A stretch of 64,000 nt of DNA from Bifidobacterium eulemuris. Its GTDB lineage: Bacteria; Actinomycetota; Actinomycetes; Actinomycetales; Bifidobacteriaceae. The stretch is taken from positions 1,116,001 through 1,180,000 of the forward strand of contig NZ_CP062938.1 of NCBI RefSeq assembly GCF_014898155.1. Reading direction: 5' to 3'. Shown piece after piece: positions 24,475 through 40,910 of this stretch. Position numbers and translations under genes: made by a program. Within the stretch, counting starts at the first letter, position 1; every line of letters begins with the position of its first letter. Under the pieces are notes generated by a model, which worked only from the letters and a program-made list of their open reading frames with translations, was not told the origin of the DNA and did not search any database.

Positions 24475-24596
24475 GAGATGCTTCGACTCCGTTCCACTCC
24501 GCTCAGCATGACATATTGTCGTCATCCCGAGCGGAGGCGCAGCCTTTCCCACTACGTCATCCCGAGCGGAGGCGCAGCCGGAGTCGAGGGATCTCA
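24475..24596. repeat. REP-like intergenic repeat 5, overlapping the adhesin stop codon
   Basis: Right arm GAGATGCTTCGACTCCG...CTCAGCATGAC (24475-24512) and left arm GTCATCCCGAGCGGAGGCGC...GTCGAGGGATCTCA ending at 24596, with a partial second left arm between. The TGA of the giant gene (24594-24596) is formed by the last bases of the repeat, so the element defines or abuts its end. Confidence 0.85.
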
Positions 24597-27500
24597 AACC
24601 CTCCGCCGCAGAACGGCCCCAGCCAGACCGAGAACCATCAGAACGCCCACGGCCATCAGGGGCGCGGCCAGGCCGATCCCGCTCTCGGACAGTTCCTCCG
24701 ACTTCTTGTCGTCCGAACCGCCGTTCTTCTTGCCGTCCGAGCCATCGTCCTTCTTGTCGTCCGAACCGTCGTTCTGATCGCCGTCCGAACCGGCGTTGTC
24801 ACCGCCGCCCGAGTTGTCCGGATTATCGGGGTCGCCGTCCGGCTTTTCGTCCGAATCACCCGAATCGTCGCCTGGATCCTCCGGATTATCGCCCGGATTG
24901 TCCGGATTCTCGGGGTTCTCCGGTTCCTCGATGGCGGGAGTCCACACGGTACCGCCGTCCTTGTCAACCACGGTCCCATCCGGACGGATGATGCCACCCG
25001 CGGGCACCACGACCTCCACACCGCTCTCCCCACCGGCGATATCAGGCTTCGGAGTGAACGTTCCACCCTCAGGCAGCGTGATGGAACCATCCGGGTTCAC
25101 CACGACCGGCTCATCGCCGCCCGGCGCGACCACGCCCTTATCATCGGGCAGACTCGCCGAACCGTCCGGATTCACAACCACACCGGCATCCGTCGACACA
25201 GACTCGACCGAAACCGTCACCACGCCAGACGTCTCACCCGTATAGTTCGAAACATCCGCGCTCGGGGTGAACGTCCACCACAACGAGATCGGAGCGCCGT
25301 CCATGGAACGCAGCGCGTGCGTGGTGTCGAGCGGAATCGTGTGCTCGGCGTCCGCGTACCAGGCGAGCGTACCCGGCACCGCTTCGACCGTGCCGTCCGG
25401 CAAGGTCACGCCCACACCCGAAGCGGCCACGCCCAGATCGGCGAGAGTCGCCCCCGCCTTCACGGTCCGGTCCTCGACCGTATACGAGATTGACGCCGGC
25501 GTGATTGAGAAGCCCTGGCTCAGGTTCGCCACGCCCTCCACCGTGTAGTTCGCATTGGACGCGCCGGTCACCGTCGCGGTGTACGAACCGACTTCGGTCT
25601 GCGCGCCCGTGACCGTCAGCACGCAGTCGTCGCCCTCCACGAGATTCGACACCGACGCCGCAGGAACATGGGCCGTCCCATCGTATGCGAACGAAGTCAC
25701 GGCATCCCACAAGACGCTCACGGGACGCGGAAGCACGCTCAACGCGACCTCGACGCTCTTCGCCTCGAAATTCGTGCTTGCCTCGGAACTAACGGTCAGG
25801 ACCGCCTCGCCCGCGCCTGTGACGCTCACGCGGCCCGTCTCGTCGACCGTCGCCACGGCCTCATTAGAAGACGCGTAGCTGATCGCGCCCGCGCCGATGG
25901 ACGCGAACGGCGCAAGCGTGAACTCCCCGTCGCCGTACATCTTGGAGAACGCCACCTGGTCGAGCGTGAACGCGTCACCGCTCTTGGCCACCGTCACCGA
26001 CACCGACGCGGACGCGCCCGTATAGTTCTGAGTCGCGGCCAGACTGGCGGTGATCGTCGCCGAACCCGCGCCCACAATCGACACGTTACCGTCCGCATCC
26101 ACCGCCGCCACGCCCGTATCGCTCGACGAGAACGACACCACGCCGCCGCTGTTTGACTTGGCCGTCAGCGTGAACCCGGCGTCGCCATAGGTCGCGGACT
26201 GGCCGGCGTCTGGCGTCAAGGTCAACACGCCCTGGGCCTTGGCGATCGAGAACCGCAGTTCGACCTCGCCCGTGTAGTTGCCCATGCCCGTCACCCTCGC
26301 GACCGCGGTCTTCTCGCCCGCGTTCGTATTGTTCTTATACGAGACCGTGAAGTCCACGCCCTCGACCAGCGCCTTGCCGTCCGCGCCCACACCCGTCACC
26401 GCGGGCTTCAACTCGGCTCCGGTATAGCCCAGGCCATTCGAGTCCACGGTGAGCATGGATTCGGTCAATTCGGCCGCGCCGATGCCGGACTCGACCGTAC
26501 CGGTCAGCTCCGTGGACTCCAACGCATACCAGCCGGCGTCCTTCCCTGACAAGGCGACCCCGGACGCCTTCACCGTCCTGACGCCCGCGGTAGCGGATTG
26601 GAACGCGAACTCCGCCGCCGAAGCCGACACGTCGTCACCCTCAAGCACGCCAGACAAGCTGATTCCCAGCGTATGCTCCGCGGGCACGGCGGTCGTCCCG
26701 TCATACGATTTGGACGCGTCGCCCGATACCTTGGCAGTCAACGTGAGCTTCTCGAGCGTGATCGACACGGAAGCCTTCACGTCAGACAGGTTGCCATCCT
26801 GGGAGAAGCGCACCGTCAACGTCTGAACACCGGTGGGCACGAGCCTGCGCGCCGTGTCGTACGGCAACTCGACCAAATACGTACCGTCGCCGTTGTCCTT
26901 CGGATTCTTATCATCGGTCAGCTTCGTCCCGCCGTAGTACAGGGCCGCCGTGCCAGGCGCGGGATCGTCCGACAAGCCCACCAGACCCGACATGCGCGAC
27001 AACAGGGCCGACATGCGCGACGGCAACGACGACCCAGAGGTCTCATCCGCGGGACGAAGCTTGGCCCTCACTATGACCGTGTCGCCATACGCGAACGACG
27101 AGGACTGCTCAGAACCGTCATAGACGTCGATATCGCCATCCTCCACAACACCGGCGGAACGGACCACCGTCACCTTACCCGACACGAACTCCACCGCATA
27201 GTTCGACAACTCCTTGGGAGCATTGCCGGAAGCCCACTTCGGCGTGACCACGTAACCCTGCTCGGTGACGGGCGAACCCTTCTTGTAATCACTCATGTAG
27301 GACAACGCGTCGAACAGCGCGCCGGACAAATCCGCACCTTCCTGTTCGGTGAGCCAACCGGACGCCGTGGCTGAATACACGGCATCCGACCCGTACGACA
27401 CCTCGACGTCCTTGGCCGTCACAACCAGCTTGGCGGGCGAGATGCCGGTCACCTCATACGACGACGGCAACTTGGACGGCAGCGCGTACCAGCCGGACGA

Positions 27501-30500
27501 ATCACCGGACAACCTGATATCCGACACCGTGACCGTCTTGGAGCCCGCGTTCGTGGACTCGAACGCATACTTCGCCGTGGCCGACACCTTTGCCTCATCC
27601 GCGGCGAGCACACCGGACACCACGTCGACCTTCAACGAATGGCCCTCAGACACGTCGGCCGAACCGTCATACGTCTTGGACGCGTCGCCCGACACGGCCA
27701 CGTCCACGGGCTTCGCCTTCAGATCGACCGTCACGGCCTTCTCGCAATCCGCGACATTGGCGTTGCCGGAGAACCGCACCGTCAACGACTGGCCCTTCCC
27801 GACGGAGATCACCTTGCCCGACGTGTCATAGGAGAGCACGACCGAATACGAGCCGTCCTGGTTGTCCGTGACCTCCACGTCACCGGGCAGCTCCTTATCT
27901 CCCAGATACAGGGCCGCCGTGCCCGGCGCGGACGAACCCGAACCATCCGACAAACTGGACGAGCCCGAACCATCCGACAAACCGGACAAGCCGAACCCCG
28001 AACCATCCGACAGACCACGCGGAGCGGCGAACACCACAGCACCCGGCTTATTGCCCGTGGCCGTCACCGTCGCCCTCACCGTGATCGTGTCCCCATACGT
28101 GAACGAGGCTTGTTTGTCATCGCCCTTATACGAGTCGGCCGTCACCGTGCCAGAGGACTGCACCACCGTCACCTTGCCCGACTTGAGCTCCACCGCATAG
28201 TTCGACGTGACATCCTCACCGCCGGCCGTGACCGACGGCTCGCCGAACTTACCCTCATGCTCGCCAACGGCCGTACCGGACGCCTCATACGACACCGACA
28301 ACACATGACCGTCCAACAAACCAGTACCAGCATCCGGCTCGGAGACCGTGTACGAGCCGACCGACAACACGCCACCCGTATACACCAGCGAATCACTGCC
28401 GCCGACCACCGCGACCGGACGCCTCGAGATCGACGCCTCGGACTGATAAGTAGCGTTTGAACCCAACGTGTAATTGGAAGACCTGCCGCCCGCAAGAGCC
28501 AACGAAACCGTCACGGGCTTGCCCTCGCCCGCCGAAGCGTCCCCGAACGCCGCGGACACGACCAACGACACCTTGCCCTCATCGGACGCCACCACGCCAT
28601 CATCAAGCGTGGCCGACCCCGAAGCGTCCACGGTACCGTCATACACCTTGCCCGACACACTCACATCCCGATACGACAACGGCTTGCAATCGATAGTGAA
28701 CTTCTCCGTCACCACCGAGGCCGCCCAACGCGCGCCCTTCGGACCGTCCTTATACTCCGCGCTCTTAACCGACGCCTCGACCACATACGAACCCGCATAA
28801 GACGGAGCCTCACCCGTCCACGCGCTCTCACCCGCACCCGCATCGGCAGAACGATAGCGCAACGACACCACCACACCATCAGCGGCCGCATCCTGCAACA
28901 CGGACGCCGAAACGGACACCGCCGAACCGTCATACACCTTCGACTCAACAGACCCGAACGTCAACACCGGATCACGACCCACCGCCAACGGATACGCCGA
29001 ACTCGAATCCTCGTCATCATTCGCATACACCAGATAACCATCAGCGGGCACCTGTCGATACACCATCGTCGCCGACGAAGGATCATCCGACGTCCTATCC
29101 GCGAACACACCACCCGTGATGGACACCTCAGCGTCAGGAACGCCCGACTGCCTATCGGCGCCGTCACCTATAGCGGCAGCATCAGCCGAACCCGCCTGAG
29201 CCGTGATTTGACCACCTGGAATCTCAACACTGACCGAACCGCGAGCATAGTATCCGCCGCCAACACCAGCAGCACCCCAGCCGCCCGTCGAGGTGACCGT
29301 ACCACCCGAAACCACAACATCGACCGAACCAGAAGCACAGAATCCGCCGCCGATACCGGCACCCGCATGGTCACCCCTCGCGACGACCGTACCACCCGAA
29401 ACCACAACATCGACCGAACCAGAATCGGAAGTATGGTCGCCGCCACCAATGCCAGCAGCATAGCTGTCGCCCTTCGCGACGACCGTACCACCCGAAATCA
29501 CAACACTGACCGCAGCAGAAGCTTGCCAGCCACCGCCAACACCAGCAGCATAGCCGCCGCCCGTCGCGACGACCGTACCACCCGAAATCACAACACTGAC
29601 CGCAGCGGAAGTATGGTTTCCACCGCCAACACCAGCAGCACCCGAGCCACCCGTCACGCTGAGGAAGCCATCACCGGAAATGGACAACGACCGTCCCTCA
29701 GTCTGCAAACCGGCGCAATTCGTGCCGCTCTTAAGCACGCTATCGCCCTTGAGTGTGAGATCCAACGAACCCGACTGCGCCCGCACGGCGGCCGCACTGT
29801 CTCCGCCGCTATAATCGTCGCGCCGGTCAATCGCCACGCCATCAAAGGTCACGTTCGCGATGGCGGATGCATCATCCATGTTCACGACGATGCGATCCTG
29901 CTTGGTGCCGTTGGGAATTGTAAGCTCCGCATCGGGATTGGCCTCGTCGGTGGGATTCTTATACGAGACCTGATCATCTGCCTGGGACGACATGCTCACC
30001 GTCAACGCCGCAGCCGTCTTGATGGTCAACACATGACCGGCGTCGCTATACGTGTAATCCGTGCCATACTTGCCGCCTGATACATGGAAATCACCCGTCC
30101 GGCTCACCACCTTGACGGGATAGGCACCCGCAGTCGCTGCATCATCATTCGCCTTGACCACATACCCGTCGGCCGGAGCCACACCATACACCTTAGTCAT
30201 CGACGCGGGAACACCCGACGTATCCGCGAAGAGACCACCCGTGATAGTAATAGTGGCATGAACCTTGCAACTGGAGCCGTCGCCTATAGCGGTAGCGTAA
30301 CCTCCCGCCTTCGCCGTGGTCCAACCGCCAGAAATCCTAACATCAATCGAATCGTTAGACCATGATCCGCCGCCAATACCAGCAGCATAGCCGCCGCCCG
30401 TCGCAACGACCGTACCGCCCGAAATCTCGACACCGACCGAATCTCGAGAACCATATCCGCCGCCAACACCAGCACCATTCTCACCGCCCGTTGCGATGAC

Positions 30501-31238
30501 CACGCCACCTGAAATCTCGACATCGACCTGAGCACGAGCACCGTATCCGCCACCAACACCGGCACCACCATAAACACCGCCCGTCGCGACGACCGTACCG
30601 CCCGAAATCACAACACTGACCGGAGCGTCAGTACTGCCACCTCCAACACCAGCAGCAAGACGGCCGCCCGTCGCGCTGAGGAAACCATCCTCTTCGCCGG
30701 AGATGGACAGCAACCGCCCCTCGCTCTGCAGACCTGCGCAATACAGCCCGCTCTTGAGTACGTTCACGTTCTTAAGCGTGAGGTTCAACGACCCCGAAGA
30801 CACCCGCACGGCGGCCGACCCTTCGATAGCGCTCCGATCGATTGCCACGTTGTCGAAGGTCACGTTCGCGGTCTTGTCCGCGTCCGCAGCCACGACGATC
30901 GTGTCCGTCGTGGTGCCGTTGAAGACCGACTGGGACTTGCCCTTGTCGTCCGTGTACTCGATCGTCTCCTTCGCCGCATCGGACATGCCCACCGTCACAG
31001 GCTTCTCGGTGGTGATGGTCAGTGTGCCGTCTTTGTATGTGTAGTCGGTGTCTTCAACCAAACCCCCCTCGTCGGTGGTGGACAGCGTAAACGCACCCAC
31101 GACCACAGGCTGCTCCTGCGCTTGGGCCTGAGCCGGGAACATGCCCAAGGCGAACACCACGGCAAGGGTGGTGAACACCATCAATAACGCGAACAACGCG
31201 GCCTTCTCAGCGGACCTTCGCAACGCTTCCACCATCAT
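24594..31238 (-). CDS. Giant modular cell-surface protein (putative adhesin), downstream paralogue
   Basis: A 2214-aa secreted repeat protein. Residues 1-40 are a signal peptide (ALFALLMVFTTLAVVFALGMFPAQAQA). Two modules (about 45-380 and 380-750) each hold a hydrophobic strand-rich part ending in AAVRxxSGSLxLTLK, then Gly-rich repeats of about 23 residues around AAGVGGG and VVISGGTVVATGG, probably a beta-helix, and a GGVFAD...VYGVAPADGYVV cap. Residues about 755-1665 carry YDGS/YDGT repeats of the YDG/MBG type; 1670-2010 carry Ig-like (Big2) units; 2020-2180 form a Gly/Asp/Asn/Pro stalk. The end is LSESG, a hydrophobic segment and RRR, like a sortase signal but without LPxTG. ATGATG at 31238 follows AGAGG. 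No catalytic motif is seen; ligand unknown. Confidence 0.85.
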   Translation of the reverse strand: MMVEALRRSAEKAALFALLMVFTTLAVVFALGMFPAQAQAQEQPVVVGAFTLSTTDEGGLVEDTDYTYKDGTLTITTEKPVTVGMSDAAKETIEYTDDKGKSQSVFNGTTTDTIVVAADADKTANVTFDNVAIDRSAIEGSAAVRVSSGSLNLTLKNVNVLKSGLYCAGLQSEGRLLSISGEEDGFLSATGGRLAAGVGGGSTDAPVSVVISGGTVVATGGVYGGAGVGGGYGARAQVDVEISGGVVIATGGENGAGVGGGYGSRDSVGVEISGGTVVATGGGYAAGIGGGSWSNDSIDVRISGGWTTAKAGGYATAIGDGSSCKVHATITITGGLFADTSGVPASMTKVYGVAPADGYVVKANDDAATAGAYPVKVVSRTGDFHVSGGKYGTDYTYSDAGHVLTIKTAAALTVSMSSQADDQVSYKNPTDEANPDAELTIPNGTKQDRIVVNMDDASAIANVTFDGVAIDRRDDYSGGDSAAAVRAQSGSLDLTLKGDSVLKSGTNCAGLQTEGRSLSISGDGFLSVTGGSGAAGVGGGNHTSAAVSVVISGGTVVATGGGYAAGVGGGWQASAAVSVVISGGTVVAKGDSYAAGIGGGDHTSDSGSVDVVVSGGTVVARGDHAGAGIGGGFCASGSVDVVVSGGTVTSTGGWGAAGVGGGYYARGSVSVEIPGGQITAQAGSADAAAIGDGADRQSGVPDAEVSITGGVFADRTSDDPSSATMVYRQVPADGYLVYANDDEDSSSAYPLAVGRDPVLTFGSVESKVYDGSAVSVSASVLQDAAADGVVVSLRYRSADAGAGESAWTGEAPSYAGSYVVEASVKSAEYKDGPKGARWAASVVTEKFTIDCKPLSYRDVSVSGKVYDGTVDASGSATLDDGVVASDEGKVSLVVSAAFGDASAGEGKPVTVSLALAGGRSSNYTLGSNATYQSEASISRRPVAVVGGSDSLVYTGGVLSVGSYTVSEPDAGTGLLDGHVLSVSYEASGTAVGEHEGKFGEPSVTAGGEDVTSNYAVELKSGKVTVVQSSGTVTADSYKGDDKQASFTYGDTITVRATVTATGNKPGAVVFAAPRGLSDGSGFGLSGLSDGSGSSSLSDGSGSSAPGTAALYLGDKELPGDVEVTDNQDGSYSVVLSYDTSGKVISVGKGQSLTVRFSGNANVADCEKAVTVDLKAKPVDVAVSGDASKTYDGSADVSEGHSLKVDVVSGVLAADEAKVSATAKYAFESTNAGSKTVTVSDIRLSGDSSGWYALPSKLPSSYEVTGISPAKLVVTAKDVEVSYGSDAVYSATASGWLTEQEGADLSGALFDALSYMSDYKKGSPVTEQGYVVTPKWASGNAPKELSNYAVEFVSGKVTVVRSAGVVEDGDIDVYDGSEQSSSFAYGDTVIVRAKLRPADETSGSSLPSRMSALLSRMSGLVGLSDDPAPGTAALYYGGTKLTDDKNPKDNGDGTYLVELPYDTARRLVPTGVQTLTVRFSQDGNLSDVKASVSITLEKLTLTAKVSGDASKSYDGTTAVPAEHTLGISLSGVLEGDDVSASAAEFAFQSATAGVRTVKASGVALSGKDAGWYALESTELTGTVESGIGAAELTESMLTVDSNGLGYTGAELKPAVTGVGADGKALVEGVDFTVSYKNNTNAGEKTAVARVTGMGNYTGEVELRFSIAKAQGVLTLTPDAGQSATYGDAGFTLTAKSNSGGVVSFSSSDTGVAAVDADGNVSIVGAGSATITASLAATQNYTGASASVSVTVAKSGDAFTLDQVAFSKMYGDGEFTLAPFASIGAGAISYASSNEAVATVDETGRVSVTGAGEAVLTVSSEASTNFEAKSVEVALSVLPRPVSVLWDAVTSFAYDGTAHVPAASVSNLVEGDDCVLTVTGAQTEVGSYTATVTGASNANYTVEGVANLSQGFSITPASISYTVEDRTVKAGATLADLGVAASGVGVTLPDGTVEAVPGTLAWYADAEHTIPLDTTHALRSMDGAPISLWWTFTPSADVSNYTGETSGVVTVSVESVSTDAGVVVNPDGSASLPDDKGVVAPGGDEPVVVNPDGSITLPEGGTFTPKPDIAGGESGVEVVVPAGGIIRPDGTVVDKDGGTVWTPAIEEPENPENPDNPGDNPEDPGDDSGDSDEKPDGDPDNPDNSGGGDNAGSDGDQNDGSDDKKDDGSDGKKNGGSDDKKSEELSESGIGLAAPLMAVGVLMVLGLAGAVLRRRV

Positions 31239-31303
31239 TAAACCTCTGCTCTTCCCTGCATGAACAACGGCATGCAGCACAATCCAATTCCCAACGTAAC
31301 AAG

Positions 31304-31313
31304 CCCCCTCCCC
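31304..31313 (-). promoter_or_regulatory. Interrupted G tract upstream of the 2214-aa surface protein gene
   Basis: On the coding strand the sequence is GGGGAGGGGG followed by CTTGTTACGTTGG, 65 nt before the ATG at 31238. Position and downstream sequence match the G13 tract of the paralogue at 40391-40403. The A interruption should stop length variation, so this copy may be locked. Confidence 0.55.
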
Positions 31314-31320
31314 ACGAAGA

Positions 31321-31383
31321 TATACGCGAACCGGGGGGCATCACATGGTCTCATTCCACGTGACGACCTCCCGGTTCGCGTAT
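31321..31383. other. Long inverted repeat between the two giant genes
   Basis: Outer arms ATACGCGAACCGGG (31322-31335) and CCCGGTTCGCGTAT (31370-31383) are complementary, with an inner pair TCACATGG/CCACGTGA (one G-T pair). The structure begins 5 nt after the stop of the 2978-aa gene and ends next to the G tract of the other. No T-run follows on the minus strand, so it may be a factor-dependent terminator or attenuator limiting read-through. Confidence 0.65.
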
Positions 31384-31388
31384 GCCCG

Positions 31389-34300
31389 TCAGGCCTTGCG
31401 CCGCAGAACGGCTCCAGCCAGACCGAGAACCATCAGAACGCCCACGGCCATAAGGGGCGCGGCCACGTCGATGCCGCTCTCGGACAGTTCCTCTGACTTC
31501 TTGTCGTCCGAGCCGCCGTTCTGATTGCCGTCCGAACCGGCGTTATCGCCGCCGGGGTTCTCCGGGTTGCCGGGTTCGCCGTCCGGCTTTTCGCCCGAAT
31601 CACCCGGATTCTCGCCCGGGTTGTCCGGATTATCGCCCGGATTGTCCGGGTTCTCGGGGTTCTCCGGTTCCTCGATGACGGGAGTCCACACGGTACCGCC
31701 GTCCTTGTCGACCACGGTCCCGTCCGGACGGATGATGCCGCCCGCGGGCACCACGACCTCCACACCGCTCTCCCCGCCGGCGATATCGGGATTCGGGGTG
31801 AACGTTCCGCCCTCAGGCAGGGTGACCGAACCGTCGGGGTTCACCACGACGGGCTTATCGCCGCCGGGCGCGACCGTGCCCTTATCATCGGGCAGACTCG
31901 CCGAACCGTCCGGATTCACGACCACACCGGCGTCCGTCGACACGGACTCGACCGCGACCGTCGCCACGCCGGTCGCCACGCCCGTATAGTTCGCGGCGTC
32001 CGCGCTCGGAGCGAACGTCCACCACAGGGACACCGGCGAACCATCAGCGGACCGCAACGCGTGCGTGGCGTCCAACGGCGTCGTATGTTCGGCGTCCGCG
32101 TACCAGGCGAGCACGCCCGGCACCGCCTCGACCGTGCCATCCGGCAAGGTCACGCCCACACCCGAAGCGGCCACGCCCAGATCGGCGATGGTCAAGCCCG
32201 CCTTCACGCTCTGATCGGCGACCGTGTACGAGAACGCGGCGGGCGTGATCGAGAAGCCCCGGCTCAGGTTCGAGCCGCCCTCCACCGTGTAGTTCGTGTT
32301 GGACACGCCCGTCACCGTCGCGGTATACGAGCCCGCGTCGCTCTGCGCGCCCGAGACCGTCAACGCGCACTCGTCGCCGGCCACCAGGTTCGACACCGAC
32401 GCCGTGGGCGCGTGCGCCGCGCCGTCGTATGCGTACTCGAACACGGACGAATCCGCGGACACGCCATCGGACGCGGTCGCGGACGTGGCTTCGGCGTTCC
32501 ACACGACGCTCACGGGACGCGGAAGCACGCCCAACACGACCTCGACGCTCTTCGCCTCGAAATCGTCGCTCTCCGCAGAGCTCACGGTCAGGGTCGTCTT
32601 GCCCGCGCCCACGACGCTCACGCGGCCCGCCGCGTCGACCGTCGCCACGGCCTCGTCGGAGGACGCGTAGCTGATCGTTCCCGCGCCGATGGACGCGAAC
32701 GGCGCCAACACGAAGTCCGAATCGCCATAGACCGCGCCCATGGCCACCGTATCCAACCGGAACGCGTCACCGCTCTTGGAGACGGTAAGCGACACCGACG
32801 CGGACGCGCCCGTATGGTTCGCCGTCCCGGCCAACGTGGCGGTGATCGTCGCCTCGCCCGCGCCCACGATCGACACCTTGCCCTGCGCGTCCACCGTCGC
32901 CACGCCCGTATCGCTCGACGAGAACGACACCGCGCCACCGCTGTTCGACACGGCCGTCAGCTTGAAGCCCGCGTCGCCATAGACCGCGGACTGGCCGGCG
33001 TCTGGCGTCAAGGTCAACACGCCCTGGGCCTTGGCGATCGAGAACTGCAGTTCGACCTCGCCCGTGTAGTTGCCCATGCCCGTCACCCTCGCGACCGCGG
33101 TCTTCTCGCCCGCGTTCGTGTTGTTCTCATACTCGACGGTGAAGTCCTTGTCCTTGACCAGCGCCCTGCCGTCCGCGCCCACACCCGTCACCGCAGGCTC
33201 CAACCCGACACCGGTATAGGCCAGACCATCCGAGGACACGGACAGGTTAAGGGCATCCAACCCGGCCTTGCCGATACCGGACGCGACCGCGCCGGTCAGC
33301 TCCGTGGACTCCAACGCATACCAATCGGACCAACCATCCGACAAGGCAACCCCGGAGGCCTTGACCTCCTTGGTGTCCGCCCTCGCTTCCGCGAACGTAT
33401 ACTCCGCCGCAGACGCCGACACCTTATCGCCCGTAAGCACATCGTCGGACAGGCCAATCCCCAACGAATGCTTCTCAGGCACCGCGGTCGTCCCGTCGTA
33501 CGTCTTGGACGCGTCACCCTCAACGCTCGCCTTCAACACGCGCTTCGCGAGCGTGACCTCCACGGAAGCCTCCACATCCGACAGGTTGCCGTCCTGGGAG
33601 AACCGCACCGTCAACACCCGGGTGCCGGCGGGCACGCGCCTGAGCGCCGTGTCGTACGGCAACTCGACCGAATACGTGCCGTCGCCATTGTCCTCCGCCT
33701 TCGCATCATCGGTCAGTCTCGTCCCGCCGTAGTACAGGGCCGCCGTGCCCGACGCCGGATCGTCCGACAGGCCCACCAGACCCGACAAGCGCGACAACAG
33801 GGACATCGCGCCCGAAGCGGGCTCCTCCCCCGTCGCCGTCACCGTGGCCCTCACCGTGATCGTGTCCCCATACGTGAACGACGAGGACTGCTCGCCGCCG
33901 TTATAGACGTCGACATCGCCATCCTCCACCACACCGGCGGAACGGACCACCGTCACCTTGCCCGACACGAACTCCACCGCGTAGTTCGACAACTCCTTGG
34001 GAGCGTCCGTCTTCCACTTCGGCGTGACCGTATAGCCCCGCTCACTGACGGGCGAACCCTTCTTGTATTCGCTCGCGTAGGCCAACGCAGCCGACAACAC
34101 GTCGGACAACGAGGAACCCTCACCATTGACCCAACCAGACACCGTGGCCGAATACACGGGATCAACCGACCCGTACGCCACCTCAATATCCTCGGCCGTC
34201 ACAACCAGCCTGGCGGGCGCGACCGTCGCCTTGCCCGCATCGACCGTGACCTTGGAACCGTCGGCGAACGTGTAGTTCGACGCCGTGGCGGTGTCCTTCA

Positions 34301-37300
34301 GCACGACCGTCGCATGGGCGGTCCGCTCGCCCGCGTCGGCCTTGTCGAACACGGCCGAGACCGTGAAATCCTCACCCCGCTTCAGACTCTCGCCCGAAAC
34401 CAGATTCTTAAACGACACCGCATCGACCGGCGCGTCAGCGGTGCTGTCATATGTCTTCCCCGACACCGTCACGGAAGCCGTCAGCACACGCTTGGCGATG
34501 GAGAACTGCAATTCGACCGCATCCTGGTAGTTGCCTTTGCCCGTCACCTTCGCGACGGCGGTCTTCTCGCCCGCGTTCGTGTTGTTCCCATACTCGACGG
34601 TGAAATCCGTGCCCTTGACCAGCGCCTTCTTATCGACGCCCTCACCCGACACCACGGGCTCCTGTCCCTCGCCGTCATACGTCAGAGACTCGGAAGGCAA
34701 CGACAGCATGGAAGCGTCCAGCTTGGCGGGCGTGATGCCGGTCACCTCATGCGACGACGGCAACTTGGACGGCAGCGCGTACCAGCCGGATGAATCACCA
34801 GACAACCTGACATCCGACACCGTGACCGTCTTGGAGCCCGCGTTGGCGGACTCGAACGCATACTTCGCCGTGGCCGACACCTTCGCCTCATCCGCGTCGA
34901 GCACACCGGACACCACGCCGACCTTCAACGAATGGCCCTCAGGCACCGTGGCCGAGCCGTCATACGTTTTGGACGCATTACCCGACACGTCCACGCCCAC
35001 GGTCCTCGCCGTCAGATCGACCGTCACGGTCTTCTCGCAATCCGCGACATTGGCGTTGCCGGAGAACCGCACCGTCAACGACTGGCCGTCCTCGATGGGA
35101 ACGCCCTTCCTCGACGTGTCATACTCCAACTCGAACGAATACGAGCCGTCCTTGTTGTCCGTGACCGTCATGTCACCGGGCAGCTCCTTATCTCCCAGAT
35201 ACAGGGCCGCCGTGCCCGGCGCGGACGAACCCGAACCATCCGACAAACTGGACGAGCCCGAACCATCCGACAAACCGGACAAGCCGAACCCCGAACCATC
35301 CGACAGACCACGCGGAGCGGCGAACACCACAGCACCCGGCTCATTGCCCGTCGCCGTCACCGTCGCCCTCACCGTGATCGTGTCGCCATACGTGAACGAG
35401 GCTTGTTTGTCATCGCCCTTATACGAGTCGGCCGTCACCGTACTGGCGGACTTCACCACCGTCACCTTGCCCGACTTGAGCTCCACCGCATAGTTCGCCA
35501 ACTCCTTGGGAGCGTCCGTCGTCCACTTCAGCGCGACCTCGTAACCGCCGTCCCTGACGGGCGAACCCTTCGCGTATTCGCAGTCATAGGCCAACTCCTC
35601 GAACAACGTGGCGGACAACGAATCCGCCTCGCCATCGACCCAACCGGACGCCTCGGCCGAATATATGGGAGCATCAGCACGATACGCCACATCGAAACTC
35701 TTGGCCGTCACCGTCAGCGCCTTCTGCTTGATGGTGAACATGCCCGTCTTCGTCACGGCCGCCCAACGCGCCCCATCCGGACCGGCGGAATACGCCGCGC
35801 TCTTGACCGACGCCTCGACCACATACGAACCCGCGTCCGACGGAGCCTCATCATCCCAATCGCCCTCGACTACAGCGGCGGGACGATATCGGAGCGACAC
35901 CTCGACACCATCAGCCTCGGCGCCCTCCGACATATCGATCACATCAGAAACGGACAGCGGCGAACCGTCATACACCTTCGACACATCGCTCTTGACCGAC
36001 AACGGATCACGACCGACAGCCAACGGATACGCCGAACTCGATTCCTCGTCATCATTCGCATACACCACATGACCATCAGCGGGCGCCTGTCGATACACCT
36101 CCGTCGCCGACGAAGGATCATCCGTCGTCTTATCCGCGAACACACCACCAGTGATGCAAACCACAGCTGTCGGAGTACCATCCTGTCTCTCGGCACCGTC
36201 GCCTATAGCGGCATCGCCACCGGAACCAGCCTGAGCCGTGATCCTGCCGCCCGAAATCTTGACATCGACCGAACCGGAAGCCCGCTTTCCGCCGCCAACA
36301 CCGGCAGCACCCTCGCCGCCAACTGCATCGACCACACCACCAGACACCACGACACTCGTCGAACTCGAATCCCAGGCTCTGTTTCCGCCGCCAACACCAG
36401 CAGCGCCCGGGCTGCCCTTCGCGGTGACCACACCACCAGACACCTCGATATCGACTGGACCGTAAGGAAAATTTCCGCCGCCGATACCAGCAGCCCCTAT
36501 ATTATACCTACCATTGCCACCGGCCGCGACGACCGTACCACCTGAAATCACAACACTGACCGAACCGGAAGTTTCAGCGCCGCCGCCAACACCAGCACCA
36601 GCACCGTATGAACTCTGGATGTTACCACCGGCCGCGACGACCGTACCACCTGAAATCACAACACTGACCGGAACGCGAGCACCGGCTCCGCCGCCAACAC
36701 CGGCAGCAGCCTCACCACCCGTCGCGACGACCGTACCACCCGAAATCACAATATTGACCGGAGTAGAAGCAGTATCGCCGCCGCCAACACCGGCAGCCCA
36801 GTCGCCGCCCGTCGCACTGAGGAAACCATCACCGGCAATGGACAACGACTGCCCTTCAGTCTGCAAACCGGCACAATTGTGCCCACTCTTGAGCACGCTA
36901 TCGCCCTTGAGCGTGAGGTTCAACGAACCCGACTGCACCAACACGGCGGCTACCCTGGTGTTGTTACTTCGGTCGATCGCCACGCCATCGAAAGTCACGT
37001 TCGCGGTCTTGTCATCGCCCGGGTTCACAACGATTCTGTCCGTCGTGGTGCCGTTGGGGACCGACTTGGAGACGCCCTTGTCATCCGTGTAGCCAATCGT
37101 TGCCTTCGCTTGGGACGACATGCTCACCGTCAACGCCTTATCCGTCTGGATGGTCAACACATGACCGGTGCCGTCATACGTGTAATCCGTGTCATACTCG
37201 CCGCCCGACACATGGAAATCACCCGTCCGGCTCACCACCCTGACCGGATAGGCACCCACAGTCGCCGCGTCATCATTCGCCTTGACCACATACCCGTCAG

Positions 37301-40300
37301 CCGGAGCCACACCATACACCTCGGTCTTCGACGCGGGATCACCCGACGTATCCGCGAAGAAACCACCCGTGATCGAAACGGTAGCGGAACCAGAACCGAA
37401 GGCACCATCACCTATGGCATCGGCTTCATATCCTCCTTGAATCGTGAGATACCCACTCGAAATACTGATATCCGAACCAGTTCCCCCATCTCCGCCGCCA
37501 ATTCCTGCGGCGTAGGAGCCTCCTGTCGCAGTAACCGTGCCACCTGAAATAGAGATGTTCGAGCCAGAACCCTCCATTCCTCCACCACCGATACCAGCAC
37601 CGCCGAAACGGTTGCCCGTCGCAGTGACCGTACCATTGGAAATACTGATGCGAGAGCCGGAACCACGGAACCCGCCGCCGATACCAGCAGCCATATCACC
37701 GCCCGTCGCTGTGATCGTGCCGCCCGAAACAGAGATATAAGAACCTGAACCCTCCATTCCGCCGCCGATACCAGCAGCCATATCGCCGCCCGTCGCTGTG
37801 ATCGTGCCGCCCGAAATCGCGATATCCGAACCCGACTCACCGTATCCACCACCGATACCAGCACCATATTGGCCGCCAGTGGCGTTCAAAGACCCACCAC
37901 CGGAAACGGACAACGCACGACCGCCATTCTGCAGACCGGCACAACGATTACCGCTCTTGAGCACGCTCACGTTCTTAAGCGTGAGATCCAACGAACCCGA
38001 ACGCACCAACACGGCGGCAGCACTGTCGCTCTGGCTTTGGTCGCCGCTTCGGTCAATCGCCACGCCATCGAACGTCACGCGCGCGATCCGATCCCCCGAG
38101 TCCACGACGACGCGATCGAGCTGCGTGCCAACCACGCTCCGCGCCTTGCCATCAGCGTCCCGATACTCGAACCCGTCATCCGCGGTGACGAACATGGACA
38201 CCGACAACGGCTCGTCGGACACAATGGTCAACACATGATCGACGAACGTGTAATCCTTACCCAACGCGCCACCGGAAACCACGAAATCACCGGTGACATG
38301 CAGTACCTCGAAAGGATACTCGCCAGATGTCGCCGAATCACCATTGCGAGCAACATAACACCCATCGGCAGGAGCCACACCATACACCCGATTATCCACA
38401 ACGCTGCCATCCGCGAAAACGCCACCAACGATGGAAACAGAGGACGAGCCGGATGAGTGAGCACCATTGCCTATGATTTCCGAACCAGCACCTCCCTCAA
38501 CCCTGATCCGACCATCTATAATCGCGATGTCAGAGGCCAACCCACTAGCACCACCACCAATACCAGCAGCACCACCACGCCCCACCGCAATGACGGTACC
38601 CCCATTAATCGTAATCTTCGCAGCAGCACCAAGGCGCCCACCACCAATACCAGCTCCATCGGAACCACCCTCTGCGTTGACCACACCACCAGTAATCGTG
38701 ACGCTCGAAGCTGTCCCCTCAGCCCCACCTCCGACGCCAGCAGCTTCGCTACCACCCTCCGCGTTGACCACACCACCAGTAATCGTGACGCTCGAAGCTG
38801 TGCCCCCAGCTCCTCCGCCAATTCCTGCGCCATGTTCACCGCCAATCGCCATGATGTTGCCACTTTCAATGGAGATTGCGCCAGAGTCATGCTGTTCTCC
38901 GCTTCCGATGCCAGCAGCCTGAGCTCCACCCACCGCGACAATCGTTCCATCTCCGGATTTAATAGTGAGCGGATACGCGCCACTCTGCAGCCCCGCTGAG
39001 CCTTCTCCGCTTTTGAGGATACTCGTCCCTTTAAGAGCAAGTTCCAGCGAACCACTTTCCACGCACAAGGCAACTCCGTCAACACTCCGGTCAACAGCTA
39101 CATTGTCAAGAGTGACATGTGCAACCGTATCGTTGCCCGCATCCACGACGATACTATCCGTGACAGTGCCTGCGGTCTTCTGGTCTTCGCCATTCGTGTC
39201 CTTATATAAGACCACATCATCCGCTTGAGCAGACATGGTCACCGTCATAGACTTCGCCGATTTGATGGTCAACACGTTGTTCTCGTATAGGTAATCACTC
39301 CCAAAAGCGCCACCAGCAACATGGAAATCTCCAGCGCGGCTCACCACCTTGAGAGGATATTTGTCCTTAGTCGTTTCATCCGTATTCTCGACGACACCAT
39401 ATCCCTCGTCAGGAGTCAAACCGTACACCTGGTTCTTGAGTACAGCGTCAGCTGACGTATCAGCGAACACGCCACCAGTAATCTTACCGCCACCAATTGC
39501 TGGTCTGTCTCCAGCACTTGCTGTAATACGACCACCTGAAATTCTGATATTCATGCCGGAATATCCATTGCCACCAATAGCGTTGCTACCATGCGGAGTT
39601 ACCGCAGTAACAGTACCGCCTTGAATCTCCACATTGGCACCACCATAAAATCCACCGCCAATACCGGCAGCGGCACCGCCACTTCTTGCATAGATGGTGC
39701 CACTAACAATTTTAATATACCGCCCAGAACTGTTATATCCACCGCCGATACCGGCACCATGGAATCCGCCAAACGCGTTGAGTGTGCCATCACCGGATAT
39801 CACGAGTGGGTGTGAACCATTTTCCAAACCAGCGCCGGCATTAGGACTCTGGAGAACGCTGATCCCCTTAAGCGTAAGCTCTAGTGAACCCGAGCTCACC
39901 CGCACGGCGGCCGGACTGCCATCGCCGCTCCGAGAGATTTTCACTCCATCGAAAATGACATGCGCCGTTCCGTCCGCGGCCACGATGATATTGCTCGTCT
40001 TGGTGCCGGTAACCGTATGTTCCTTGCCATCGGCATCCGTGTAGGTGAACTCGTCCTTCGCCGCATCGGACATGCCCACCGTCACGGGCTTCTCGGTGGT
40101 GATGGTCAGCGTGGTGCCCTCGTACCGGTAATCGGCGTCCTCGATCAAACCGCTTTCGTCGGTGGTGGACAGCGTGAACGCGCCCTTGACCACGAGCTGC
40201 TCCGCCGCTTGGGCCTGGGCCGGGAACATACCCAAAACGAACGCCACGGCGAGGGTGGCGAACATCATCAACAACGTGAACAACACGGCCTTCGGAGCGG

Positions 40301-40325
40301 ACCTACGCAATGCTTCCACCATCAT
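31389..40325 (-). CDS. Giant modular cell-surface protein (putative adhesin), upstream paralogue with G13 tract
   Basis: A 2978-aa paralogue of the next gene. It has the same signal peptide (about 40 aa) and four modules instead of two (starting near residues 48, 332, 678 and 1037), each with Gly-rich repeats around AAGIGGG and ISISGGTVTATGG. YDG/MBG-type repeats run from about 1440 to 2430, Ig-like units from 2435 to 2800, then a VVNPDGS-type linker, an acidic Pro/Gly stalk and the tail LSESG, hydrophobic stretch and RRK. The C-terminal 500 residues are nearly identical to the paralogue. ATGATG at 40325 is preceded by CAGGGG; an upstream in-frame TTG (40451) has no Shine-Dalgarno. Possible roles are attachment or carbohydrate binding; none is proven by sequence. 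Confidence 0.85.
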   Translation of the reverse strand: MMVEALRRSAPKAVLFTLLMMFATLAVAFVLGMFPAQAQAAEQLVVKGAFTLSTTDESGLIEDADYRYEGTTLTITTEKPVTVGMSDAAKDEFTYTDADGKEHTVTGTKTSNIIVAADGTAHVIFDGVKISRSGDGSPAAVRVSSGSLELTLKGISVLQSPNAGAGLENGSHPLVISGDGTLNAFGGFHGAGIGGGYNSSGRYIKIVSGTIYARSGGAAAGIGGGFYGGANVEIQGGTVTAVTPHGSNAIGGNGYSGMNIRISGGRITASAGDRPAIGGGKITGGVFADTSADAVLKNQVYGLTPDEGYGVVENTDETTKDKYPLKVVSRAGDFHVAGGAFGSDYLYENNVLTIKSAKSMTVTMSAQADDVVLYKDTNGEDQKTAGTVTDSIVVDAGNDTVAHVTLDNVAVDRSVDGVALCVESGSLELALKGTSILKSGEGSAGLQSGAYPLTIKSGDGTIVAVGGAQAAGIGSGEQHDSGAISIESGNIMAIGGEHGAGIGGGAGGTASSVTITGGVVNAEGGSEAAGVGGGAEGTASSVTITGGVVNAEGGSDGAGIGGGRLGAAAKITINGGTVIAVGRGGAAGIGGGASGLASDIAIIDGRIRVEGGAGSEIIGNGAHSSGSSSVSIVGGVFADGSVVDNRVYGVAPADGCYVARNGDSATSGEYPFEVLHVTGDFVVSGGALGKDYTFVDHVLTIVSDEPLSVSMFVTADDGFEYRDADGKARSVVGTQLDRVVVDSGDRIARVTFDGVAIDRSGDQSQSDSAAAVLVRSGSLDLTLKNVSVLKSGNRCAGLQNGGRALSVSGGGSLNATGGQYGAGIGGGYGESGSDIAISGGTITATGGDMAAGIGGGMEGSGSYISVSGGTITATGGDMAAGIGGGFRGSGSRISISNGTVTATGNRFGGAGIGGGGMEGSGSNISISGGTVTATGGSYAAGIGGGDGGTGSDISISSGYLTIQGGYEADAIGDGAFGSGSATVSITGGFFADTSGDPASKTEVYGVAPADGYVVKANDDAATVGAYPVRVVSRTGDFHVSGGEYDTDYTYDGTGHVLTIQTDKALTVSMSSQAKATIGYTDDKGVSKSVPNGTTTDRIVVNPGDDKTANVTFDGVAIDRSNNTRVAAVLVQSGSLNLTLKGDSVLKSGHNCAGLQTEGQSLSIAGDGFLSATGGDWAAGVGGGDTASTPVNIVISGGTVVATGGEAAAGVGGGAGARVPVSVVISGGTVVAAGGNIQSSYGAGAGVGGGAETSGSVSVVISGGTVVAAGGNGRYNIGAAGIGGGNFPYGPVDIEVSGGVVTAKGSPGAAGVGGGNRAWDSSSTSVVVSGGVVDAVGGEGAAGVGGGKRASGSVDVKISGGRITAQAGSGGDAAIGDGAERQDGTPTAVVCITGGVFADKTTDDPSSATEVYRQAPADGHVVYANDDEESSSAYPLAVGRDPLSVKSDVSKVYDGSPLSVSDVIDMSEGAEADGVEVSLRYRPAAVVEGDWDDEAPSDAGSYVVEASVKSAAYSAGPDGARWAAVTKTGMFTIKQKALTVTAKSFDVAYRADAPIYSAEASGWVDGEADSLSATLFEELAYDCEYAKGSPVRDGGYEVALKWTTDAPKELANYAVELKSGKVTVVKSASTVTADSYKGDDKQASFTYGDTITVRATVTATGNEPGAVVFAAPRGLSDGSGFGLSGLSDGSGSSSLSDGSGSSAPGTAALYLGDKELPGDMTVTDNKDGSYSFELEYDTSRKGVPIEDGQSLTVRFSGNANVADCEKTVTVDLTARTVGVDVSGNASKTYDGSATVPEGHSLKVGVVSGVLDADEAKVSATAKYAFESANAGSKTVTVSDVRLSGDSSGWYALPSKLPSSHEVTGITPAKLDASMLSLPSESLTYDGEGQEPVVSGEGVDKKALVKGTDFTVEYGNNTNAGEKTAVAKVTGKGNYQDAVELQFSIAKRVLTASVTVSGKTYDSTADAPVDAVSFKNLVSGESLKRGEDFTVSAVFDKADAGERTAHATVVLKDTATASNYTFADGSKVTVDAGKATVAPARLVVTAEDIEVAYGSVDPVYSATVSGWVNGEGSSLSDVLSAALAYASEYKKGSPVSERGYTVTPKWKTDAPKELSNYAVEFVSGKVTVVRSAGVVEDGDVDVYNGGEQSSSFTYGDTITVRATVTATGEEPASGAMSLLSRLSGLVGLSDDPASGTAALYYGGTRLTDDAKAEDNGDGTYSVELPYDTALRRVPAGTRVLTVRFSQDGNLSDVEASVEVTLAKRVLKASVEGDASKTYDGTTAVPEKHSLGIGLSDDVLTGDKVSASAAEYTFAEARADTKEVKASGVALSDGWSDWYALESTELTGAVASGIGKAGLDALNLSVSSDGLAYTGVGLEPAVTGVGADGRALVKDKDFTVEYENNTNAGEKTAVARVTGMGNYTGEVELQFSIAKAQGVLTLTPDAGQSAVYGDAGFKLTAVSNSGGAVSFSSSDTGVATVDAQGKVSIVGAGEATITATLAGTANHTGASASVSLTVSKSGDAFRLDTVAMGAVYGDSDFVLAPFASIGAGTISYASSDEAVATVDAAGRVSVVGAGKTTLTVSSAESDDFEAKSVEVVLGVLPRPVSVVWNAEATSATASDGVSADSSVFEYAYDGAAHAPTASVSNLVAGDECALTVSGAQSDAGSYTATVTGVSNTNYTVEGGSNLSRGFSITPAAFSYTVADQSVKAGLTIADLGVAASGVGVTLPDGTVEAVPGVLAWYADAEHTTPLDATHALRSADGSPVSLWWTFAPSADAANYTGVATGVATVAVESVSTDAGVVVNPDGSASLPDDKGTVAPGGDKPVVVNPDGSVTLPEGGTFTPNPDIAGGESGVEVVVPAGGIIRPDGTVVDKDGGTVWTPVIEEPENPENPDNPGDNPDNPGENPGDSGEKPDGEPGNPENPGGDNAGSDGNQNGGSDDKKSEELSESGIDVAAPLMAVGVLMVLGLAGAVLRRKA

Positions 40326-40390
40326 CAAACCCCTGTTCTCTCCGGCACGCACGGCGTCATGCGGCACAATCCAACTTCCAACGTAACAAT

Positions 40391-40403
40391 CCCCCCCCCC
40401 CCC
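40391..40403 (-). promoter_or_regulatory. Homopolymeric G13 tract upstream of the 2978-aa surface protein gene
   Basis: Thirteen uninterrupted G on the coding strand, 65 nt before the start codon. The tract is followed by ATTGT and TACGTT, a possible -10 box (40385-40380). If so, the tract lies in the promoter spacer (18 nt to TGTTCT) and slippage would change promoter strength. The same region is open in the gene's frame, so translational switching from an upstream start is a second possibility. Confidence 0.6.
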
Positions 40404-40774: not shown

Positions 40775-40910
40775 TTTCTATTTACTCTATTTATTCTATA
40801 AATCGCTGACTGATACCCTAAAAGCATTGCAAAACCGCCATTTGTAGCACTCATACGCATCTACTGAAAATCTTCTAAAGATTTTCTATTTCATTCTATT
40901 TATTCTATAA
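40775..40910 (+). repeat. Twin AT-rich direct repeats with 9-bp substructure
   Basis: A 27-28 bp unit occurs at 40775-40801 and 40883-40910, each made of three TCTAT-centred 9-10 bp steps (TTTCTATTT, then ACTCTATTT or ATTCTATTT, then ATTCTATAA). The second copy forms the -10 region of the ATPase gene (TATAAT at 40906-40911). They look like binding sites for a regulator or replication-type protein. Confidence 0.7.
40867..40885. promoter_or_regulatory. Candidate operator for the ATPase gene
   Basis: AAAATCTT (40867-40874) and AAGATTTT (40878-40885) form a perfect 8-bp inverted repeat with a 3-nt spacer, overlapping the expected -35 region of the TATAAT promoter at 40906. It may bind a dimeric repressor. 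Confidence 0.45.

Follow-up and report, generated by a model that had tools for sequence, protein, structure and literature searches.

Is a run of thirteen Gs, standing a short distance 5′ of the start codon of a gene for a giant secreted protein, a means by which a Bifidobacterium would vary its surface from one sister cell to the next, or is it a homopolymer to which the cell is indifferent? The run in question lies in the stretch of 64,000 nucleotides of Bifidobacterium eulemuris DNA analysed here, the window, which belongs to a genome that is a single contig of 2,920,839 bases. The gene, A, is followed next downstream by a paralogue, B (Table 1). The reading favoured, to which a probability of about 0.58 is given, is that the promoter of A, a gene for a cell-surface protein, holds in G13 a contingency, or phase-variation, tract. 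Replication slippage would add Gs to, or remove them from, a tract just 5′ of the −10-like TGTTACGTT, and its length would shift the distance, or the helical phase, from the −10 to the RNA polymerase contacts that lie upstream, with the shifted contacts causing transcription to differ among sister cells.

Table 1. Coordinates, within the window, of the features of genes A and B and of their leaders
Feature	Position	Strand	Remarks
G13 homopolymer, proposed slippage tract within promoter	40391..40403	-	sequence, statistics
TGT, extended -10-like TGN, directly before the TACGTT of A	40386-40388	-	
Candidate -10 hexamer TACGTT of A	40380..40385	-	no other TANNNT in the 200 nt 5′ of the ATG
Shine-Dalgarno-like AGGGG before ATG 40325	40330..40334	-	by eye
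Gene A, 2978-aa secreted giant protein	31389..40325	-	Beta_helix_3, YDG, MBG_2, Big_2 domains
Strong hairpin between A and B, 62 nt	31322..31383	-	81-nt fold -49.6 kcal/mol, z -6.7
Interrupted tract GGGGAGGGGG of paralogue B	31304..31313	-	65 nt before ATG 31238
Candidate -10 hexamer TACGTT of paralogue B	31293..31298	-	
Gene B, 2214-aa secreted giant paralogue, next downstream of A	24594..31238	-	

The tract, the family and chance

A check of the sequence found the G13 pure and exactly where the earlier note had placed it, with the ATG of A 65 nt downstream as counted there. The account that the same note gave of B was equally accurate: the segment GGGGAGGGGG is likewise 65 nt upstream of B's ATG, and TTGTTACGTTGG follows the tract in both leaders (ATTGTTACGTTGG in A, CTTGTTACGTTGG in B). 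The protein encoded by A has a signal peptide and an anchor, both judged by eye, and its C-terminus is a hydrophobic segment ending RRKA, while for the protein of B the YDG and Beta_helix_3 domains score above Pfam's cut-off, and MBG_2 and Big_2 below it.

How surprising is such a run? No other run of G or C in the window exceeds 7, and a first-order model leads to an expectation of 0.004 runs of at least 13 per window, with one of 300 simulated windows holding a run of that length. Genome-wide, where the expected numbers are scaled up from the composition of the window, there are 25 runs of at least 9 vs about 37 expected, which is fewer than chance, and six of at least 13 vs about 0.2 expected. 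The excess is limited to long runs, shorter ones not being in excess, and G13 is a long pure repeat beyond chance length of the sort that marks contingency loci.

It had been proposed that A and B would provide one switchable and one constant surface protein. That pairing is incomplete, since a DNA search of the genome itself showed three leaders of this type, the third belonging to a complete paralogue, C (1858 aa; G000:C1:2067879-2073455, + strand), which also bears a pure tract, G11, 60 nt upstream of its start. The pure tracts of the paralogues differ, being 13 in A and 11 in C. When the N-terminal 217 residues were searched for in 112 genomes of the genus, matches came from four, B. eulemuris itself (G000), B. 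lemurum (G041), G107 and G109, those in the last two being weak and partial. The B. lemurum homologue, D, is of 703 aa and has GGGAGACGGG at the position of the tract, so B and D (GGGGAGGGGG and GGGAGACGGG) each have an interrupted 10-nt segment and no pure tract. When genome contigs were searched for relatives, by name, with the N-terminal domain, none came up, and the 88 homologues listed from a protein database, which gave no context, mostly have a beta-helix Pfam domain. The protein cluster to which C belongs (P0003) comprises two sequences from two contigs, and a second assembly may exist.

If the favoured reading holds, C with its G11 would vary independently of A, and the interrupted segments of B and D would be nearly stable. 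An interrupted tract such as that of B should merely slip far less. Counting against the favoured reading is the absence of a pure tract from B and D: to judge by these leaders, the family does not conserve it.

Does the leader act on translation or on transcription?

The frame of A is open across the tract, as had been remarked, and remains so back to a TTG at −126. Were translation to start at that TTG, tract length would set the frame, as in the pilin genes of B. breve where the known switch is intragenic (PMC9187656). The other leaders speak against it. An in-frame stop is present 3′ of the tract in C (−54 to −52) and 3′ of the tract position in D (−12 to −10), the only in-frame start 5′ of the ATG of B is at −42, i.e., downstream of its tract, and in none of B, C and D is the tract inside coding sequence after a start codon in the B. 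breve manner. In A itself a ribosome-site-like AGGGG and a signal peptide are found directly at the ATG. The leaders of C and D are thus non-coding, as most likely are those of the family at large. A frame switch, which the earlier note had kept in reserve, is very improbable, and from the frames of B, C and D translational switching via the tract was rejected for the family.

What then of transcription? After the tract position the aligned leaders of A, B, C and D all have TA(C/G)(G/A)TT, and in three of the four (A, C and D) it is the sole TANNNT within the last 200 nt. B has one further TANNNT, TATCTT at −84, and no other TANNNT is common to the four. T1, A2 and T6 of the hexamer are kept in all four, and it is these three that are reported to vary least among the −10s of mapped promoters of B. 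breve, in which a spacer of 17 is optimal and spacers of <14 or >20 are rare (PMC5746004). In A, B and D, TG is present one base ahead of the hexamer. The proposal that TACGTT is the −10 of A gains from its being the only TANNNT in A's 200 nt and from the three positions kept in the four leaders, but a −35 to go with it is not seen: at spacers 14–20 from TACGTT there is no −35-like hexamer, A having at most two matches of six and any of the four leaders at most three of six, and scanning for sigma-70 promoters near the two genes A and B gave 0 sites. The notion that G13 is a switch is similarly placed. In its favour are the length and purity of the tract, its place 5′ of a gene for a surface protein, and the fit of comparable tracts in the genome and genus to slippage switches, but the same lack of a −35 weighs on it. 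We infer that TACGTT serves as the −10, that length affects transcription and that slippage occurs in this strain.

From tract to hexamer the gap is 5 nt in A and 1 nt in C, and from the start of the segment to the hexamer it is exactly 15 nt in B and D, 18 in A and 12 in C. If 15 nt were the working distance, the recorded forms of A and C would, on these four sequences, both be off it. Homopolymer lengths in databases can be wrong (PMC9187656). A tentative elaboration, for which the odds are not good, is that of a promoter-length rheostat shared by a few paralogous giant adhesins, in which the segment of B and D would fix an ancestral 15-nt spacing while A (18) and C (12) would be free-running, so that one member would be constant and the others would drift independently.

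With no −35 visible by the tract, might the promoter be further upstream and the tract be part of the mRNA leader, its length affecting how the mRNA folds, pairs with small RNAs or is reached by ribosomes? Two AT-rich repeats beginning TTATAGAATAAATAGA at 40790-40910, about 465–585 nt upstream of A's start, would accommodate this, and there is precedent in the Helicobacter pylori tlpB leader whose G-repeat is the target of the small RNA RepG (PMC8295292). However, within 165 nt A has one TA (at −161) apart from that of the hexamer, and no other TANNNT is present within 200 nt. Also pertinent is the hairpin between A and B, which is terminator-like but lacks a T run, and a terminator scan found none. 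The hairpin suggests a separate transcript for B, begun within the 83 nt that are left; if it does end the transcript of A, the promoter of B must be between it and B's ATG. An mRNA-leader role is, on balance, quite unlikely.

G-tracts elsewhere in the genome and in the genus

Could G13 have expanded in non-coding DNA with no effect on expression, as a homopolymer that is inert or at most weakly deleterious? The company it keeps is relevant. The contexts of the 25 tracts, sorted by eye, comprise nine in same-strand gene leaders, four within signal-peptide regions and 12 elsewhere, the last including three in a phage-tail-like gene. Among the nine genes with leader tracts, eight look by eye to encode secreted, membrane or lipoproteins and one encodes an 80-aa protein. 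By the same inspection 12 of the 25 tracts adjoin or interrupt genes for secreted or surface proteins, which argues against inertness, as does the presence of pure tracts at the same place in A and C, before related surface genes and with the adjoining leader conserved. On the other side are the lack of a pure tract in B and D, long tracts with no obvious target (e.g., 1358306-1358318), and a lack of genus-wide −10 enrichment at the offset concerned, considered below. Taken together these make an inert run unlikely.

The four tracts in signal-peptide regions (L038, L040, L046 and L049; G10 or G11) all have the frame closed at the recorded length, as judged from an ATG chosen by eye; in L049 a GTG situated 7 nt 5′ of that ATG does give an open frame. 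Closed frames are as expected for OFF variants, with L049 the exception from its GTG. Pfam assigns SBP_bac_1 to L046, SpaA to L049 and YDG to L040, and a Pfam search of L038 gave no domain.

Two other tracts in the same genome are promoter-like, one being TTGACA-N5-G10-TACTGT with a spacer of 15, and the other TTGACG-N4-G13-TATTCT with a spacer of 17, the latter (G000:C1:1909270-1909282) before the gene for the 80-aa protein, which is DNA-binding-like by eye. Its B. lemurum counterpart has G10 instead of G13 and keeps a −10-like TACTCT, and the TTGACG is not kept. A G15 (1432108-1432122) is inside the reading frame of a protein resembling the 80-aa one.

Several further runs deserve mention in their own right. 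Two pilin-like genes (G000:C1:1375133 and 1677279), whose proteins are 82% identical and have LPMTG motifs, share an identical 3′ leader, with differing tracts (G13 and G11) and differing upstream DNA. The longest run of the genome, of 17 bases (G000:C1:1081393-1081409), is 51 nt before an open frame for a UbiA-type prenyltransferase and is C17 on the strand of that gene. In the phage-tail-like gene, so called by eye, three runs of G10–G11 occur within 850 nt (G000:C1:839616-840464), and its reading frame stops just past the middle one.

For the genus, 112 genomes were used for each test, with the reversed motif as control. The full arrangement, TTGAC-N0-8-G9-N0-8-TANNNT, has seven sites in six genomes vs 0 for the control, and TTGAC within 6 nt before G9 has 15 sites (22 matches) vs four control matches. 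G9 followed directly by TANNNT gave 147 matches vs 48, with 45 genomes above control and 14 below (sign test 6.5e-5), and these matches include non-promoter cases, as five that were viewed in genome G084 are in a repeated element and one of the three in B. eulemuris (1357946) is inside a coding tract. With TANNNT 1–5 nt after G9 there is no enrichment, 95 vs 91 for the control, or 80 vs 88 when genome G016 is left out. As A and C belong to this 1–5 nt class, the genus signal supports promoter tracts generally and not the spacing of A and C. Runs of at least 12 occur in 57 of the 112 genomes, some of those listed being at contig ends where they may be assembly artefacts.

Fifteen of the matches in the 1–5 nt class are from G016, and those fetched are coding tracts. 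They are from two regions of its contig C23 (61500-71500 and 169000-178392) which have fifteen genes for small secreted proteins with G9–G11 some 5–8 codons past the ATG. At the recorded lengths 13 of the ATG frames are closed, one is open and one is off the contig end; the three proteins printed have an MPTTG sorting-like motif. This has the look of a contingency family most of whose members are off, and the motif search found a family of this type in one of the 112 genomes, G016. The repeated element of G084 is present there in five near-identical copies (G084:C1, 2590154-2629588) with a 10-base C run, the other strand of which, translated by eye, would specify a short hydrophobic peptide with prolines.

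Kinship with known switches, and meaning

To which of the known poly-G switches is the tract of A closest? Within the genus, slippage at intragenic G-tracts controls pili in B. breve, and further tracts are stated to be in promoter spacers (PMC9187656). The recorded tracts of bbr_0113 and bbr_1889 in B. breve UCC2003 are 11 and 10 (PMC9187656). Those pilus tracts and that of A have in common the genus, a similar poly-G length, a surface structure and replication slippage, the last being proposed for A. However, the B. breve ones are in coding sequence and act on frame, whereas that of A is outside the gene, and the UCC2003 pilus clusters hold a dedicated sortase gene. Similar in its manner of working is porA of Neisseria meningitidis, where also a poly-G is 5′ of a surface-protein gene, near the −10, and its length is proposed to set transcription. 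There, hexamers are on both sides of the tract and length-dependent expression has been measured (11G, 10G and 9G; PMC3639595). A −35 and a −10 flanking the tract, some 17 nt apart at the ON length, are not what A has, there being no −35 at spacers 14–20. The claim kept for A, in which no −35 is visible, is of probably working in like manner, and membership of the porA class is not claimed. In the tpr genes of Treponema pallidum the likeness is that a promoter poly-G is present in several members of a surface-protein family. For tpr, fragment analysis and reporters showed that tract length varies and that expression depends on it (PMC7864442), and the proteins are unrelated. A literature search, with most subscription journals outside its coverage and the domains of the family not among its queries, turned up neither this family of giant proteins nor its tract.

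Switching by poly-G slippage being already known in bifidobacteria, the tract of A is probably a further case of it. What it adds is an extension of slippage switching in commensal bifidobacteria from the coding sequences of pili to, probably, the control of giant surface proteins at their promoters. The natural variants, G13, G11 and the two interrupted forms, make the role of the tract directly testable. Should the rheostat proposal be true, the family would belong to a set of G-tract switches spread over the genome, with a small putative DNA-binding protein among them. The indications are that this Bifidobacterium has switchable surface genes in sizeable number.
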